Assembly: GCF_000785535.1 (NCBI RefSeq)
Contig: NZ_CP007595.1
Span: 3,866,439 to 3,930,438, forward strand
DNA: 64,000 bases
Direction: 5' to 3'
Source of the DNA: Arthrobacter sp. PAMC 25486
GTDB lineage: Bacteria > Actinomycetota > Actinomycetes > Actinomycetales > Micrococcaceae
Below are positions 4,986 through 42,208 of this stretch, in pieces (positions within the stretch are counted from its first letter, which is position 1; each line of letters begins with the position of its first letter). The translations under genes were made by a program, and so were the position numbers. Below the pieces are notes generated by a model that did not search any database, was not told where the DNA came from, and saw nothing but the letters and a program-made list of their open reading frames with translations.

Positions 4986-6404
4986 ATGTCCGCTGCCGCA
5001 ACGAAGAGCCAACCCAACATCGTCGTCATCATTTCCGATGACCACGGTTACGCCGACCGGTCCATCCTGGGTGTCCAGGATGATGTGAACACGCCCGCCA
5101 TGGACCGCCTGGCACAGGAGGGCGCGTCCTACACCAACGCATATGTGACGGCGCCCATTTGCTCCCCGTCGAGGGCGGGCCTGGCAGCAGGCAGCTACCA
5201 GCAGCGGTGGGGTGCGCGCTGGTTTACCGACTCGGAAATCGGGCCCGAAGACGTGCCCACCATGGCGGAGCTGCTGCGCGGGGAGGGTTACACCACCGGC
5301 TACTTCGGCAAGGTCCACTACGGCACCGAGCACCACGGGGACCGAGGCACGCCGCCGCAGCACGGCTACGATGAATCGTTCTACGGGCTGGCCGGGGAAT
5401 CCATGGGCCGGCTCAACTACCTCCACCATTCCGAAGAGTCAGTGGAGGAGTATGGCGAGGCAGCATTTCCCATGGCGGTGCAGCCGCTGTGGAATGGCGA
5501 AGAGCCGCAGGAACTGGAAGGCTTCCTGACAGACGCCATCGGCGAGCGGACGCGGGCGTTCGTGGCCGAACATGCGGACAAGCCGTTCCTGGCCACCGTG
5601 GCGTTCAACGCCGTGCATAACTTTTGCTGGCAGCTGCCTGCGGAGGAGCTCGCCAAGCGCGGACTCCCGGCCTATGAGGACTGGAACCCCGGTGCCAGCG
5701 AATACATTGACTGGTACGACGGCGCCATCAGCCCCCACCTGGAGAACGGCCGTGCCTATTACCTGGCTCAGCTGGAGCTCATGGATGCGCAGATCGGGCT
5801 CATCCTCGACCAGCTCGACGAACTTGGTCTGGCGGAGGACACCATCGTCGTCTACCTGACGGACAACGGCGGTTCCACCTGCAACTATGGGGTCAACCTG
5901 CCCCTGCGCGGCACCAAATACACGCTCTGGGAGGGCGGCGTGCGCGTGCCGTTCCTGCTGCGCTGGCCGGGCCGGGTCCCCGCCGGTGCCGTCCACGAGG
6001 GGCTGACGAGTTCCCTGGACATCCTGCCCACCGCCATGGCTGCCGCCGGTGCGGACCCTGCCGCCTACGCGCACAGCGACGGCCGGGACCTGCTCGCCAC
6101 CGACGGCCACGAGGCCCTGCACTGGGATTGCGGCTGGCAGTGGTCGGTGCGCCGCGGCGACTGGAAGTTACACTGGGTGGAGCCCGGCTCGCCCGTGGCG
6201 GAGGCCATCAGGGACGTGGAGCACGCCGAGCCCGGCAGCGGCTACTTCCTGTGCAACCTGGCTGCGGATCCTGCCGAGACCACAAACCTGTACGACGCCG
6301 AACCAACAGTCGCGGCTGAGCTCACCGCCTTGCGTGGGGCCTGGCTGGCAGACGTGGGGAGTACCGGGCAAGGTGCCTTGCCGGAGCCTGCAACCGTTTC
6401 CTAA
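4986..6404 (+). CDS. Sulfatase (formylglycine-dependent, family S1)
   Basis: A 472-residue sulfatase, clearly different from the one at 2272-3837. SDDHG is at residues 17-21 and the formylglycine motif CSPSR starts at Cys59, followed by AGLAAGSYQQRWG; GYFGKVHYG and LTDNGG match further active-site and metal segments. AGGAG lies six bases before the ATG. The gene is second in an operon with the isomerase. Two non-redundant sulfatases next to one lyase would suit removal of sulfate from different ring positions of unsaturated disaccharides; this is inferred. No signal peptide is evident. Confidence 0.9.
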   Translation: MSAAATKSQPNIVVIISDDHGYADRSILGVQDDVNTPAMDRLAQEGASYTNAYVTAPICSPSRAGLAAGSYQQRWGARWFTDSEIGPEDVPTMAELLRGEGYTTGYFGKVHYGTEHHGDRGTPPQHGYDESFYGLAGESMGRLNYLHHSEESVEEYGEAAFPMAVQPLWNGEEPQELEGFLTDAIGERTRAFVAEHADKPFLATVAFNAVHNFCWQLPAEELAKRGLPAYEDWNPGASEYIDWYDGAISPHLENGRAYYLAQLELMDAQIGLILDQLDELGLAEDTIVVYLTDNGGSTCNYGVNLPLRGTKYTLWEGGVRVPFLLRWPGRVPAGAVHEGLTSSLDILPTAMAAAGADPAAYAHSDGRDLLATDGHEALHWDCGWQWSVRRGDWKLHWVEPGSPVAEAIRDVEHAEPGSGYFLCNLAADPAETTNLYDAEPTVAAELTALRGAWLADVGSTGQGALPEPATVS

Positions 6405-9349: not shown

Positions 9350-9557
9350 AACGCTAACAGCGGACAGGAACAGGGCAAAGCCACAGTAATTTCATCGACG
9401 CGGTAATCTAGACACTAGTAGAGCTGTACCACCTGTCACTGCAGGGATCGCCCGCCAGATTCCCGCCCTCCATACCCGGGCGCAAGGAAACAGCGCAGAG
9501 CAACCGCACCGGCACGGAAAGCAGCTTACGACTTTCGACTTTTAAGGGGTAAAGCAA
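9350..9557 (+). promoter_or_regulatory. Promoter and long 5' leader of the cold-shock gene
   Basis: About 208 bp separates the two divergent starts. A TAATCT hexamer near 9403 could be a -10 element. This would leave a leader of about 145 nt, as is common for cold-shock genes, ending in AAGGGG before the GTG start. Promoter placement is tentative. Confidence 0.35.
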
Positions 9558-9938
9558 GTGCCTATCGGCAAAGTGAAGTGGTACGACAACGAAAAAGGCT
9601 TCGGCATCATCGCAGCCGACGACGGCCGTGAAGTATTCCTGCGCGCCAACGCCCTGCCCGCTGACGCAGGTGACATCAAGCCCGGCATGCGCCTGGAATT
9701 CGGTGTCGCCGACGGACGCAAGGGCGCCCAGGCCATGGCGGCCAAGATTCTTGACCGCAGTGCATCGGTTGTCAAGGCCAAGCGGATGCCCGCCCGTGAC
9801 TTGGCCCCTATTGTGCAGGACCTTGTGTCCCTGCTGGAGCATTCTGTGGGAACCCTGACCAACGGCAAATATCCTGACGGTGACGCGAGCAAAATTGCCG
9901 CAGCGCTGCGCAAGGTAGCCGACAACTTTGACGCGTAA
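9558..9938 (+). CDS. Cold-shock domain protein
   Basis: A 126-residue protein with an N-terminal cold-shock domain (residues 1-65): GKVKWYDNEKGFGII contains RNP1, and EVFLRANAL replaces the usual VFVHF-type RNP2. The family binds single-stranded RNA/DNA and acts as an RNA chaperone. The extra C-terminal 60 residues (VQDLVSLLEHSV...) are typical of the longer actinobacterial form. The GTG start follows AAGGGG. The downstream DUF3027 gene starts within 12 bp and is probably co-transcribed. Confidence 0.9.
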   Translation: MPIGKVKWYDNEKGFGIIAADDGREVFLRANALPADAGDIKPGMRLEFGVADGRKGAQAMAAKILDRSASVVKAKRMPARDLAPIVQDLVSLLEHSVGTLTNGKYPDGDASKIAAALRKVADNFDA

Positions 9939-37749: not shown

Positions 37750-38178
37750 TTAAGGCTTGCTTTTAAGCTTTGGTGAGCGTAGACGAGGGAGGACGAACTC
37801 CGTCAGCAGCGGGGCGAGGTCCTCAAAGTCCTCGGCCGCCTCCACATGCATCCAGCGAATTTCGGCGATCTCTGCGGCCGGAACCACCGACCCTGCGTCC
37901 CAGCGCCCCGGTGCCGTGAACACCGTGGCTTCGATGTCGGTATTGGCTTCATTGGCGGCGGTGCCGTGCCACACACCCATGAGTTCAAGGTCTGCGGCGG
38001 CGATGTTCAGACCCACTTCCTCGGACAGCTCCCGGGAGCCGGCCTCGGCGGCGGATTCACCCAGTTCAGGTTTGCCGCCGGGGTGCATGAATTTTGTGGT
38101 GCCTTGTTTGCGGACAGTCAGGAGCCTGCCGTCGTGGTCGTAGATGCACACGGCAGAGACCCGGAGAATGTTTTTCAC
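37750..38178 (-). CDS. Nudix hydrolase
   Basis: A 142-residue protein with a complete Nudix box, GKPELGE...REL.EEVGL (GX5EX7REUXEEXGU), beginning near residue 34. It probably cleaves a nucleoside diphosphate derivative; substrate unknown. GTG at 38178 has AGGA upstream. It is not adjacent to the NrtR system but lies on the same strand downstream of it, after a 400-bp gap. Confidence 0.88.
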   Translation of the reverse strand: MKNILRVSAVCIYDHDGRLLTVRKQGTTKFMHPGGKPELGESAAEAGSRELSEEVGLNIAAADLELMGVWHGTAANEANTDIEATVFTAPGRWDAGSVVPAAEIAEIRWMHVEAAEDFEDLAPLLTEFVLPRLRSPKLKSKP

Positions 38179-38582
38179 GCCTTCGATCCTACCGGCGAGC
38201 CGCATGTACCGCTGCCGGTCCGCTGCGGCCTATCCCGCCGTCGGACGCGCGGGGCGGCTTGGCGTGTTGCTGGGAAATGTGTGGAGTGGCACTGTTTGGT
38301 CCGGAAATCTCGCCGAGATGGAGGCCAAGCCGCATTGTGCGCCGCGCACTTTGCCGAGGATGGGCCCGGCCCGCAATATGCCGTCAAAGTTGCGGCCTCC
38401 TCGCGGGTACGGCCCATTTTCTCCAATGCGGCTGACGGATCGGTGGGTTTGCACCATTTTCGATGGCCGGGATCGCGGGTTTACCCATTCCCGAGGGTCG
38501 GACGGACGCATTGGCCCCCGGCGCCAGGCCCAGACCCGGGGCCGATGGTCCCGGGGTACCGGACGGATCAGGCTGCCGGCGG
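38179..38582. other. Non-coding gap between Nudix and NAD-kinase-like genes
   Basis: 404 bp with no supported gene. It is GC-rich with several short hairpins (for example around CCCCGGCGCC and CCCGGGGCC near 38517-38540). Open frames here run into the antisense of neighbours and have no ribosome sites. Confidence 0.5.
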
Positions 38583-39473
38583 TTAAATGAGCCGCAGCGG
38601 CCGGGTGCCCAGTTGGACGGTAAGTTCCTGGCCCCACGAAGCGGTAAGCCGGTCGCCTTCCATGCCGTCCCCAAAAATGACTAGCTGGTCGGAGGCGGCC
38701 GTGATGCGCAGCGGCTCTCCGGCTGACAAGAAGCCCTCGGTCAGGGTGGCGCCCGTGGCCGGCGACGGCCAAGCCTCGCGGACAAACCAGGCGAGCCGGG
38801 GGTCGGATGGTGCCGGGAGAGGCCGTCCGCCGCGTTCCAAGGCAATGGATGCACACCAGCCGGTGGCGCCCGTCCCGGTGGACACAATCAACCCCGACGA
38901 CGATTGGCGCTCAACCCGGCCATCCGGCGTCGTAATTTGGTAGCGGGCCGATTGGTGTGAGGAGTGGCCAATGAAGATTTCATTCAGGGCGGAGAGTTCC
39001 TGCCCGTCGTCGAGCCGTGCCGTGACCATGGCCAGGTTTTCGCATTGCATGGCGGACAGGCCCGCGGCTGCCCTGGCGAGCAGTGCGGCGGCGGCTGCGG
39101 GGGAGTGCCTGACCAGGATTCCCGCGTTCACACCGGGCTCCGGGTCGATGCCGAGGACGGGCTGGCCGCTGAGATATTTTGCCGTGTTGGCCACGAGTCC
39201 GTCCTGGCCGACGACGGCGATGACGTCATCCTGGGTGAACATGAACCGGCTCAGGTCGGTGCGTTCCACGTCGGCGAGGCGCCATCCGGCGGGCACCGAG
39301 GCGCGCACCTGGGCCAGGGCGGCCATGATGAAATTGTGCCGTTCCTGGACGGGCGCCAGGGCTCGGCCCCTGGTGCGGAGAAAGAATTCTGCCTGGCCGG
39401 CGGTGGCATGCCGGTCGAGGAGTTCCTGAAATTCGGTGCGCCGGTGGACGACCACGAGGCGGGGAGTTCCCAT
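38583..39473 (-). CDS. NAD-kinase-like protein
   Basis: A 296-residue protein with the NAD/diacylglycerol kinase fold. GQDG (89-92) replaces the canonical GGDG, NE at 164-165 matches the NAD-binding pair, and STGTGATGW (198-206) replaces the usual PTGSTAY glycine-rich segment. These changes mean it may bind NAD or a related nucleotide without classic NAD kinase activity. It starts 4 bp after the SPFH gene with AAAGG inside the SPFH end, so they are an operon. It lies under NrtR-type boxes, which supports a link to NAD or ADP-ribose. Confidence 0.75.
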   Translation of the reverse strand: MGTPRLVVVHRRTEFQELLDRHATAGQAEFFLRTRGRALAPVQERHNFIMAALAQVRASVPAGWRLADVERTDLSRFMFTQDDVIAVVGQDGLVANTAKYLSGQPVLGIDPEPGVNAGILVRHSPAAAAALLARAAAGLSAMQCENLAMVTARLDDGQELSALNEIFIGHSSHQSARYQITTPDGRVERQSSSGLIVSTGTGATGWCASIALERGGRPLPAPSDPRLAWFVREAWPSPATGATLTEGFLSAGEPLRITAASDQLVIFGDGMEGDRLTASWGQELTVQLGTRPLRLI

Positions 39474-39477
39474 GGCC

Positions 39478-40512
39478 TTACCTTTCTGTTGCGGGCAGGA
39501 CGGCCTGACCAGCGGCTGCCGGGGCTTGGAACAATCCTGCCAGTGCGCCGCTCAGCAGGTCCGGGGTGATGGTCAGGTTGTTGATGTTGGGCAGCGAGGC
39601 GGCGGCTTCACGGAAGGCCAAGGCCAGCAGCGTGGCCTGGTCCATGCCCTTGTAGACCTCCATGGCAGCGGCTTCGCGGGCGGCGGCCGCCTCGCCGACC
39701 AGCTTGAGCTGATGGGCCTCGGACGTGGCGCCGATGCCCTGGCGTTCAGCCTCGGCCTGGGCCCGGATGAGTCCGGCAGCGGCCTGCTCCCCGGCTTCCC
39801 GCCGGGCGTTGGCACCTTCCTGGGCAACAAGGTTTTCCCGGCGGGCGGCCAGCTCAATCTTGCTCGCCATCTCATTCTCCGAGATGGTCCTTTCCCGCTC
39901 CACGGCCACTGCCCTGCGCTCGTAAACAGCCCTGTCCGCCTCGGCCTGGAGCTGTTCGCGGACCGGTGTCTGCAGTGCCCTTTCAACGTCAGCCTCCGGC
40001 CGGACGGCCAGGACCTGCACGCCGAGGATTTCAATGCCGGTTGACAGGAGCCGGCCGTCGGCCTGCAAGGCGCCCGTCAGCAGGCCGCGCAATTCACTGA
40101 CCCCGCGCTCCAGTGACTGGGCAAGAGTTGTGGCGGCAATCTGGTCGATCGCGTGGCTTTGGCACAGCTGCCCGATGATGGTTGCCACTTGTTCGCGCCC
40201 GGCCGTTGTTGCGCCGCCGCCCGGCTGAAGTGCAAAGTCGAGGCGGCTGGCAACCGATACAGGATCGTTGAAACGGTAGGTGACATTGGCCTGGACGCTG
40301 ACGTCCTGGTGGTCGCGGGTGATGGCGTGGAAGAGTGTGGGCAACTCCTGGTCGTCCATGGGAACCTCGCTCAATACCGATGCCGCGGGCCGGAACCAGA
40401 ATGCCTGGCCCACGCCCTGGTGGCGGACATCGCCCTTCTGCAGGTGGACGACGTATCCCGTGGGGCTGCCCAGGAAGTGATTGATCCAGGGGTAGCGCTT
40501 GATGGTGGCCAT
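39478..40512 (-). CDS. SPFH/band 7 domain protein
   Basis: A 344-residue SPFH protein. The band 7 region is about residues 20-200 (TRDHQDVSVQANVTYRFNDP, GIEILGVQVLAVRPEADVERAL), followed by an Ala/Glu/Arg-rich coiled coil (about 200-290) as in stomatin/flotillin scaffolds. There is no clear N-terminal transmembrane helix; peripheral membrane binding is likely. GAGGAGA precedes the ATG. It is the first gene of the operon with the NAD-kinase-like protein and faces NrtR across 101 bp. Confidence 0.88.
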   Translation of the reverse strand: MATIKRYPWINHFLGSPTGYVVHLQKGDVRHQGVGQAFWFRPAASVLSEVPMDDQELPTLFHAITRDHQDVSVQANVTYRFNDPVSVASRLDFALQPGGGATTAGREQVATIIGQLCQSHAIDQIAATTLAQSLERGVSELRGLLTGALQADGRLLSTGIEILGVQVLAVRPEADVERALQTPVREQLQAEADRAVYERRAVAVERERTISENEMASKIELAARRENLVAQEGANARREAGEQAAAGLIRAQAEAERQGIGATSEAHQLKLVGEAAAAREAAAMEVYKGMDQATLLALAFREAAASLPNINNLTITPDLLSGALAGLFQAPAAAGQAVLPATER

Positions 40513-40530
40513 GGGGCTCTCCTCACGTTG

Positions 40531-40551
40531 TTATCGTCATTGTGACGATAA
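40531..40551. promoter_or_regulatory. NrtR-type operator, box 1
   Basis: Perfect 9-bp arms TTATCGTCA / TGACGATAA around a 3-bp centre, 18 bp before the SPFH start. It has the same arms as box 2, 45 bp away. Confidence 0.8.
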
Positions 40552-40575
40552 TAAAAGCCTAGGGCCTGCGCACCT

Positions 40576-40596
40576 TTATTGTCAACATGACGATAA
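40576..40596. promoter_or_regulatory. NrtR-type operator, box 2
   Basis: Arms TTATTGTCA / TGACGATAA (one mismatch) around a 3-bp centre, 17 bp before the NrtR start. Each divergent gene has a box in front of it, which fits autoregulation plus control of the SPFH operon. Confidence 0.8.
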
Positions 40597-40613
40597 GTGT
40601 TTAGGGTTGAGTT

Positions 40614-41354
40614 ATGCCTGATGCCTACCCCGAGCCCGCCCGCTTTCCGGTGACGGTCGACGTCGTTGCCCTCACGGTCAGCGGTGGCGCCCTCCAAGTC
40701 TTGTTGGTCACCCGCCTGATTGCGCCCTTTCAAGGCGGTCTGGCACTGCCTGGCGGGTTTGTGCTGCCGGGGGAGGATCTGGTGGAAGCTGCCGGACGTG
40801 AATTGGCGGAGGAAACCGGGGTGGCACAGCTGCCGGGATATTTGGAACAGCTGCAAAGCTATGGGCCACAGGGCCGTGACCCGAGAGGTGACGTGCTGAC
40901 CGTGGCACACCTGCTGCTGGCACCGAACTTCCCGGTCCTGGCCGCCGGCAGTGACGCCGCCCATGCCGGCTGGTATCCGGTCAGTCAGGTTCTGGAGGGT
41001 GACCTTGAGCTGGCCTTTGACCACCAACGGATACTGGCCGACGCCGTGGAGCGGGCCAAGTCCAAGCTGGAGTACTCACCCCTGGGAGCCGCCTTTTGCG
41101 GGCCGGAATTCACCGTCGCGCAACTGCGGGCTGTCTATGACGCGGTGTGGGACACGAAGCTGGATCCCCGGAACTTCCATCGGAAAGCCACTGGAACCCC
41201 GGGGTTTCTGGAAGACACGGGAAAGCTGAGCACCGGTGAGGCAGGGCGCCCGGCGGCATTGTTCCGGCTTGCCCCGGAAGCACTGCCAGTTGCGGGTGAA
41301 GCTGCACAAGCCGTCCTCAACCCGCCGATCATGCGGCCCTCGGAGCGAACATGA
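40614..41354 (+). CDS. NrtR-type Nudix-winged-helix transcriptional regulator
   Basis: A 246-residue protein with an N-terminal Nudix domain and a C-terminal winged helix (about 150-215, [32 protein letters not shown]). This is the NrtR architecture; NrtR represses NAD metabolism genes and is released by ADP-ribose. The Nudix box is intact (GFVLPGE...REL.EETGV), whereas many NrtR proteins have lost catalysis. Palindromic boxes lie in the divergent gap. The 3' end overlaps the YnfA gene by 26 bp on the opposite strand. Confidence 0.88.
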
Positions 41355-41664
41355 TCACACTGACCCCGGCCAACGCAATGAGGGCGCCGATCACGTCCCA
41401 GCGGTCGGGCGAGAACTTGTCGAAGATCATGCCCCACACCAGCGAGCCGGCAATAAACACGCCACCGTACGCTGCCAGGACGCGGCCAAAGTTGGCGTCG
41501 GCCTGCATGGCAGCGATGAACCCGTAGGCACCCAGGGCCACAATTCCCAGTCCGGCCCACCACCACGCCCTGTCTTCACGCACTGCCTGCCAGATGAGCC
41601 AGGCGCCGCCGATTTCAGCCACTGCGGCCAGTGCGAACAAGATGATGGTTTTGGCAATGCTCAT
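41329..41664 (-). CDS. YnfA/UPF0060 family small membrane protein
   Basis: A 111-residue, four-helix protein. [30 protein letters not shown] and [23 protein letters not shown] match the UPF0060 family, related to small multidrug resistance proteins. Function is not firmly established. Start 41664 gives the family length; a longer frame to 41736 is unlikely. It converges on and overlaps the NrtR gene end. Confidence 0.9.
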
Positions 41665-41710
41665 GGCCCCATCATCCCTTGTCGGCGAGGGGCATTCGGT
41701 CCGGAATCTC

Positions 41711-42208
41711 TCAACGCCCAAACCAGGGGACAGCATCGTGTATCACTGGTGCCGCATTGTCAGCCGGGCGAATTTCAAGTTCGAATGCCGGTTCCACACC
41801 GGAAAACTCACGCAGTGACAACCGGTACACGCCAGGGGCGCAGGGCAGGCGCAGGCTATTTCGGGGATCGGCGGCGGCCTCGTCGGGAAATTGTGCCGCC
41901 ATGGTCAGCTGTGTGTAGCTCGTCAGGCGCAATCCGGCGTCGCCCACCCGGAGCATGCCCGACGCCTCCCGGATTACCCTGCCCGCTCCGTGCTGGTCCA
42001 CAAGATGGAACGGTTCATCGGCAAAGTCATCGCCAGGATAGGCGACAAAGGCATTCTCCAAGTTCATTTGCTCAACGAACCGGTCCATGAGTTGGGCCAG
42101 GGTCCAGTCCGGCGCAACGAATCCGCTGTAGTGATCCGGAGCAACCAAGGCGAGGAAACCATCCTCATCAAAAGGGAAAAACAGGTTGAACGTCACAGGC
42201 TGGTTCAT
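41711..42208 (-). CDS. Protein of unknown function
   Basis: A 165-residue soluble protein starting at ATG 42208, without a visible ribosome site. It begins [30 protein letters not shown]. No family is recognised; alternating hydrophobic strands and acidic loops suggest a beta-rich fold. It has no signal peptide or membrane segment. Its neighbour on the same strand is YnfA. Confidence 0.6.

Follow-up and report, generated by a model that had tools for sequence, protein, structure and literature searches.

Regulators of the NrtR/NdnR type combine a Nudix domain with a winged helix, and in the regulons described (SoNrtR, MsNrtR, Corynebacterium glutamicum) a palindrome lies between divergent genes and the targets are genes of nicotinamide adenine dinucleotide (NAD) synthesis. 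The ligand differs within the family: an excerpt of PMC4666351 has one member responding to arabinose and one to NAD. But what would such a regulator be doing beside genes of another kind? In Arthrobacter sp. PAMC 25486, a 64,000-nucleotide stretch of the 4.59 Mb chromosome (NZ_CP007595.1, positions 3,866,439 to 3,930,438; referred to here as the window) holds a three-gene cassette in which an NrtR-type regulator neighbours an SPFH protein and a protein related to human mitochondrial NADK2. All three open reading frames are present, with nrtR divergent from the SPFH and kinase-like genes and 4 bases between the SPFH stop and the kinase-like start codon. The sequence-only reading called the module undescribed, which fits the literature searched: no NrtR–SPFH–kinase cassette is described among the matches listed, the founding NrtR work lying outside the scope of that search. 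Our preferred reading, held at slightly less than even confidence, is that of a repressed, self-regulated SPFH and NADK2-like cassette which responds to NAD breakdown and moves as a unit.

How tightly are the three genes linked? The sequence-only reading named a lack of linkage in relatives among the outcomes that would refute it, and linkage is borne out by 97 distinct loci, a phylum sample and plasmids. Among the 97 loci (two, L050 and L098, with a partial kinase gene, both counted among the 100 kinase rows), SPFH is present in 95 and nrtR in 83, or 82 real genes, as L050 contributes a remnant. The duplicate genomes L042, L044 and L048 were dropped from the locus, neighbour, two-box and gap counts and are still inside the 101-, 99- and 87-row alignments. 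The 14 loci lacking nrtR are L052–L055 and L057–L060 (8), L118 and L125, cut at contig ends, the partial L098, and L113, L126 and L141, which have none. In seven Streptomyces-like genomes with an SPFH–kinase pair and no adjacent nrtR, the regulator gene is found on another contig (3) or at a distance of about 90–150 kb (4) and is immediately preceded by a box. Of 396 genomes of the phylum, 13 have the kinase-like gene and 14 have SPFH, a contig end accounting for the difference, and the two are linked in all 13. All three genes run in one direction in G350, at 31–40% identity; of 39 genomes of the taxonomic order to which G350 belongs, G350 alone gave a copy. From 72,556 plasmid records, 64 match the kinase-like protein, 57 of them over at least 80% of the query, and 42 of these are from Rhizobium. 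In eight annotated plasmid regions, the NUDIX–SPFH–kinase cassette is found in Rhizobium (two), Methylomonas and Providencia, an Acinetobacter plasmid has the NUDIX and kinase genes next to a disrupted SPFH gene, Treponema and Roseomonas plasmids have SPFH and kinase with no NUDIX-annotated gene directly beside, and a Psychrobacter plasmid has a kinase-gene remnant; a ninth region, from Cupriavidus, carries no annotation. Rhizobium etli CFN 42 has its cassette on p42f. The SPFH–kinase pair occurs across actinobacteria, proteobacteria and one spirochaete; in actinobacteria and proteobacteria the regulator adjoins it. A DNA search with the Providencia cassette returned no E. coli carriers, copies under about 65% identity escaping such a search. 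On two plasmids, pALWED1.1 and pKLH80 (L223, L226), tetR(H)-tet(H) has the kinase-like gene as its immediate neighbour, either complete or reduced to a C-terminal remnant, so that a piece of the cassette seems to travel with this resistance pair. At L065 a second partial kinase-like copy (9358–9714) follows about 2.5 kb after the first.

The operators carry the regulatory part of our preferred reading. Two 21-base-pair (bp) palindromes, referred to here as box 1 (SPFH-proximal) and box 2 (nrtR-proximal), pair 9 of 10 and 8 of 10 arm positions, respectively (Table 1). One palindrome had been assigned to each direction; the boxes are real, but that division is too simple because both lie within one shared 101-bp intergenic region and box 2 also covers the TTGACA of the presumed SPFH promoter. 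A sigma-70 scan of 40450–40700 returned no promoter at threshold. When the whole genome was scanned with up to three mismatches, 9 matches at 6 places were found against 5 for a reversed control pattern, so three-mismatch matches are at chance level; with 0 or 1 mismatch only the two cassette boxes appear, and the box of a second NrtR in this genome has 2. Conservation is far above chance: at least one box lies within 125 bases before SPFH in 94 of 96 rows (95 loci and the window) and two boxes in 90, compared with 0.95 rows and 0.0 rows in dinucleotide shuffles (20 per row), a box being 12 or more of the 16 fixed letters of a consensus derived from the same set. Boxes are missing at L053 and L126 and single at L061, L113, L116 and L120. 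The start-to-start spacing is 33–34 in 47 rows, 44–45 in 41 and 51–52 in 2; the two main classes are one helical turn apart, which would suit a need for both dimers to point in one direction. In 87 of the 90 two-box rows the last letters of the far box are TTGACA (44) or TTGACG (43), and TANNNT follows 18 bases past this TTGAC[AG] 72 times and 17 bases past it 16 times (counts taken without a control), so the far box would double as a -35 element. Palindromes thus precede both nrtR and its putative target, as for cognate operators of the family. In the preferred reading two NrtR dimers would bind one face of the helix and repress the operon, one dimer covering the -35 element and the other the start of the SPFH promoter; from the layout of the sites, the nrtR-proximal box would also mediate autorepression.

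Does the box follow the regulator in distant copies? The two palindromes of G304 read TGGGC for TCGTC (by eye), pair 6 of 10 arm positions and lie 57 bases apart; they score no better than other places of the same stretch. Proteobacterial palindromes resemble, by eye, TTAGTGTC-N5-GACACTAA. These sites hint, short of proof, that box and regulator have changed together. Separately, L206 (G119) has two more boxes with perfect 8-base arms, at 5070 and 11509, far from the cassette and before genes of no clear role.

Table 1. Genes, boxes and predicted promoter elements of the cassette (window positions)
Feature	Position	Strand	Remarks
NADK2-like protein, 296 aa	38583..39473	-	GQDGLVAN replaces GGDGT
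SPFH/Band 7 protein, 344 aa	39478..40512	-	without transmembrane-like stretch; long helix 174-287 in model
NrtR-type regulator	40614..41354	+	Nudix domain (intact box) and winged helix
NrtR-box 1, SPFH-proximal	40531..40551	reads TTATCGTCACAATGACGATAA on - strand	predicted SPFH transcription start beneath
NrtR-box 2, nrtR-proximal	40576..40596	reads TTATCGTCATGTTGACAATAA on - strand	17 bases before nrtR ATG
TTGACA, predicted -35 of SPFH promoter	40580..40585	-	within NrtR-box 2
TAGGCT, predicted weak -10	40556..40561	-	18 bases after TTGACA

The linkage and the operators also bear on the plainest explanation, namely an ordinary spare NAD-kinase gene that lies beside an SPFH gene by chance. Some sources do name the protein NAD kinase, but the linkage in all 13 genomes of the phylum sample and in other phyla, the dedicated operators and the similar trees make this very improbable.

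What would the regulator sense? The protein has both domains of the family, an N-terminal NUDIX (PF00293, E 2.9e-16) and a C-terminal winged helix (NrtR_WHD, PF21906, 50.6 bits against a cut-off of 27), and matches PDB 3gz5, which we take to be SoNrtR, at E 3.4e-25; the Providencia cassette regulator matches the same entry over its full length with 365 bits. The NCBIfam equivalog for an ADPR responsive repressor, NF050029, gives 109.6 bits, below its curated cut-off of 400. An exact Nudix signature, G-x5-E-x7-RE-x2-EE-x-G, starts at residue 48 and is equally exact in 81 of 86 relatives in the alignment of actinobacterial members. This contrasts with the degenerate Nudix box of MsNrtR, for which no activity was detected according to an excerpt of PMC6800001, and with a statement about the family in the excerpt of PMC4666351. 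Intact boxes suggest that actinobacterial NrtRs of this kind may hydrolyse their ligand and so reset the switch. In the putative pocket Arg34, Arg88, Arg91 and His137 are kept in 85, 87, 86 and 87 of 87 rows; they were paired with the ligand residues of SoNrtR and BtAraR through our own alignments, the contacts being those given in the excerpt of PMC4666351. Among these four, the equivalents of SoNrtR Arg41 and Arg98 are those kept in 85 and 86 of the 87 rows. As the arabinose sensor has Gly at the place of Arg98, according to the same excerpt, the pocket looks like the ADP-ribose (adenosine diphosphate ribose) type, the place of Tyr10 aside. The earlier proposal of ADP-ribose sensing is backed by residues only: Arg41 and Arg98 equivalents and the nearby Arg and His. 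Given these contact residues and the known family members, splitting of NAD would raise ADP-ribose, which would bind the Nudix pocket and release NrtR from the DNA.

Is this simply the cell's regulator of NAD synthesis? That candidate was rejected, as the genome has another NrtR in front of a gene that resembles nadA by eye, with a diverged box of its own. This second NrtR (L012; G000:C1:1440075-1440810) has a degenerate Nudix box and an operator TTATAGTC-N5-GACTAGAA that differs by one letter per arm, a difference which possibly insulates the two paralogues. A tree of 60 NrtR rows places the window NrtR in a supported group of 44 (96/93), together with SPFH-linked actinobacterial and Streptomyces-like genes and some unlinked paralogues, and the nadA-side NrtR in a separate supported group of 8 (100/99). 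The tree has long branches, and 42 rows around the window form an open fork, so the tree offers a lead, and no more, that several NrtR lineages were recruited separately. In a cassette-free relative (L214) a further NrtR paralogue adjoins pnuC-like and NMN (nicotinamide mononucleotide) adenylyltransferase-like genes, identified by eye.

The chemistry of the cassette would depend on the kinase-like protein. It belongs to no Pfam family, like four distant copies, and reaches 19–33 bits with NCBIfam NAD-kinase models whose cut-offs are 211–316. Its best PDB sequence match is nevertheless human NADK2 (E 3e-10), and the model predicts an NAD-kinase fold over the whole chain, closest to NAD kinases, with human NADK2 as best fold match; the N-terminal region, the NE motif, SSG and TGTG..W align. 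It differs from NADK2 in its place in a cassette, in an identity of 22% in the structural alignment and in GQDGL for GGDGT. The phosphate loop GGDG[ST] marks the NAD kinase family. Here GGDGT is replaced by G-[QP]-D-G-L in 100 of 101 rows, and in 8 of 9 distant relatives read the second Gly is Gln, Pro or Thr. Asp91, Asn164 and Glu/Asp165 are kept in the 101 rows, as the Asn-Glu/Asp motif and loop aspartate of the family, and so are REAWPS and F-x-DG-x-E-x-D. The place of a canonical aspartate aligns with Ser193, and human NADK2 lacks the same aspartate. With the Pfam domains, the exact Nudix signature and the NADK2 match, this G[QP]DGL loop upholds the sequence-only description of an NrtR with intact Nudix box opposite an operon of SPFH and altered NAD kinase. 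A housekeeping NAD kinase with GGDGT is encoded elsewhere in the genome, and PF20143 matches two other places and not the cassette gene; a role as the main NAD kinase of the cell was discarded, as the canonical enzyme is already present.

So is NAD still phosphorylated? With the loop altered, more than one substrate and phosphate donor may come into question. Under our preferred reading the closely coupled enzyme would phosphorylate NAD or an NAD-derived nucleotide at the SPFH assembly, giving the cell a supplementary route, next to its housekeeping NAD kinase, during NAD breakdown. Alternatively, the protein might be a kinase for ADP-ribose, NMN or its riboside or a sugar phosphate, or use another donor, in which case the cassette would serve to detoxify NAD fragments or to salvage them, and not to produce NADP. 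The loop has undergone a fixed change with the other motifs retained, the genome already has an NAD kinase, and several plasmid copies are annotated 'sugar kinase', an automatic name. Along its entire length, however, the predicted fold resembles NAD kinases most, and NADK2 shares the change at the Ser193 place, SSG and TGTG...W, so the changes are compatible with an NAD substrate; we consider this alternative unlikely. Could the protein have lost catalysis altogether? A pseudoenzyme binding NAD, NADP or ADP-ribose and reporting its level to the SPFH assembly would fit the near-universal loss of the second Gly, the change of Thr to Leu, the tight spacing to SPFH and the Asn that replaces the loop Asp in one distant relative (P0135). 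A mere binder would hardly need Asp91 and Asn164-Glu/Asp165, which, that relative apart, the copies read from actinobacteria, proteobacteria and a spirochaete retain, and this explanation is quite unlikely.

The third protein has a Band_7 domain in Pfam (E 1.3e-14), as does the R. etli member. Its model (mean predicted local distance difference test, pLDDT, 82.7; predicted template modelling score, pTM, 0.54; low in the tail) shows an SPFH domain and a long helix, the features shared with HflK/C, erlin, stomatin, flotillin, prohibitin and major vault protein; fold matches to all of these were obtained, none decisive, and the only profile match is to HflK (E 1.3e-5). According to an excerpt of PMC2636767, most SPFH subfamilies have an N-terminal transmembrane anchor, whereas the SPFH8/9 groups are soluble. 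The cassette protein has no predicted transmembrane segment, a trait in which it resembles SPFH8/9. Its best 19-residue hydropathy is 1.15 and that of the kinase-like protein 1.29, neither giving a transmembrane-like stretch, and the label 'membrane-linked' given to the module therefore finds no support here. Among 98 SPFH members, 3 reach 1.6 anywhere and the maximum in the first 80 residues is 1.3, with no N-terminal anchor apparent. Peripheral contact with the membrane is possible. The SPFH structure alignment leaves out L056, whose read-out holds a stop, and L045. No SPFH partner gene other than the kinase and NrtR recurs across loci, NfeD not having been searched for by family. In the preferred reading the protein would form a ring or cage without a transmembrane helix of its own.

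Does the cassette move, and could it serve in defence? In the genus the kinase-like gene is found in 7 of 23 genomes, that of the window included, one as a remnant. At its 3' end (stop at 41354) nrtR overlaps a convergent ynfA-like gene (41329-41736, YnfA/UPF0060) by 26 bases, and in 13 of the 16 cassette-free genomes mutT and ynfA are close neighbours, no mutT or no ynfA being found at the place in the other 3. By contrast with this site, the cassette is found across ynfA, on the opposite flank, in three sister genomes and elsewhere in two, in one of which (L237) mutT, ynfA and eamA are contiguous; in G004 only nrtR and kinase pieces are left at the site. The cassette looks like a unit gained, lost and decayed together. 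The MutT/Nudix gene at 37750-38205 was excluded as a fourth member, as it neighbours ynfA in those 13 of 16 genomes. At L054 and L057–L060 (Streptomyces-like) SPFH–kinase is divergent from arginine deiminase-like and ornithine carbamoyltransferase-like genes, with the same boxes between. These genes, identified by eye, were dismissed as members, being present at only 5 of 97 loci. Neighbour genes were called by a simple method based on GC position, and their counts are minimum values; on these counts a fourth gene recurs at 14 of 97 loci at most. If the cassette were an immune or counter-toxin module, attack by a NADase or by ADP-ribosylation would raise ADP-ribose, and the SPFH–kinase pair, once induced, would protect or limit NAD. 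Such a role would agree with this sporadic presence, the empty sites in sisters, the plasmid carriage and the ADP-ribose-sensing members of the NrtR family. A Nudix-HTH (helix-turn-helix) regulator is also proposed to sense ADP-ribose in other conflict systems described in an excerpt of PMC9503650; those systems are centred on an ADP-ribosylglycohydrolase, whereas here no fourth gene recurs above the level just given. No PADLOC model is matched by any of the three proteins and the kinase-like protein is absent from phage records at E 1e-5, by which a known defence family was ruled out, and we regard an immune role as distinctly improbable.

Several observations weigh against the preferred reading. 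Nothing in the analysis shows the SPFH and kinase-like proteins touching, and with the loop changed to G-[QP]-D-G-L, NAD phosphorylation may be lost or changed. The N-terminal places counted for SoNrtR Tyr10 hold no conserved Tyr in the 87 rows, and the arabinose- and NAD-responsive members make ADP-ribose less than certain as inducer. Degenerate Nudix boxes in 5 of 5 proteobacterial NrtRs and in three distant actinobacterial ones (L061, L215, L216) mean that hydrolytic reset is not general. The genes also come apart: L053 and L126 are SPFH–kinase pairs without nearby NrtR or box, L113 and L141 pairs without nearby nrtR, the only NrtR match in G307 (the genome of L053) lies among NAD-synthesis-like genes (by eye), and G264 has NrtR and box with no SPFH or kinase-like match. 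The pair can thus work under other control. In the phylum samples 5 or 6 first-look candidates were scored per genome, and absences are less sure than presences.

A broader version of the preferred reading is possible, on the doubtful side: a widespread, horizontally moving system in which ADP-ribose from NAD breakdown induces an SPFH assembly without transmembrane helices, which carries a re-tooled enzyme of NAD-kinase fold whose effect is to protect, divert or remake the pool of NAD. If the preferred reading is true, a sensor of NAD breakdown would be coupled to a scaffold and to an enzyme related to NADK2, through a switch whose operator layout gives clear predictions. It would also make a relative of human mitochondrial NADK2 accessible to study in bacteria and give anchorless SPFH proteins a role.

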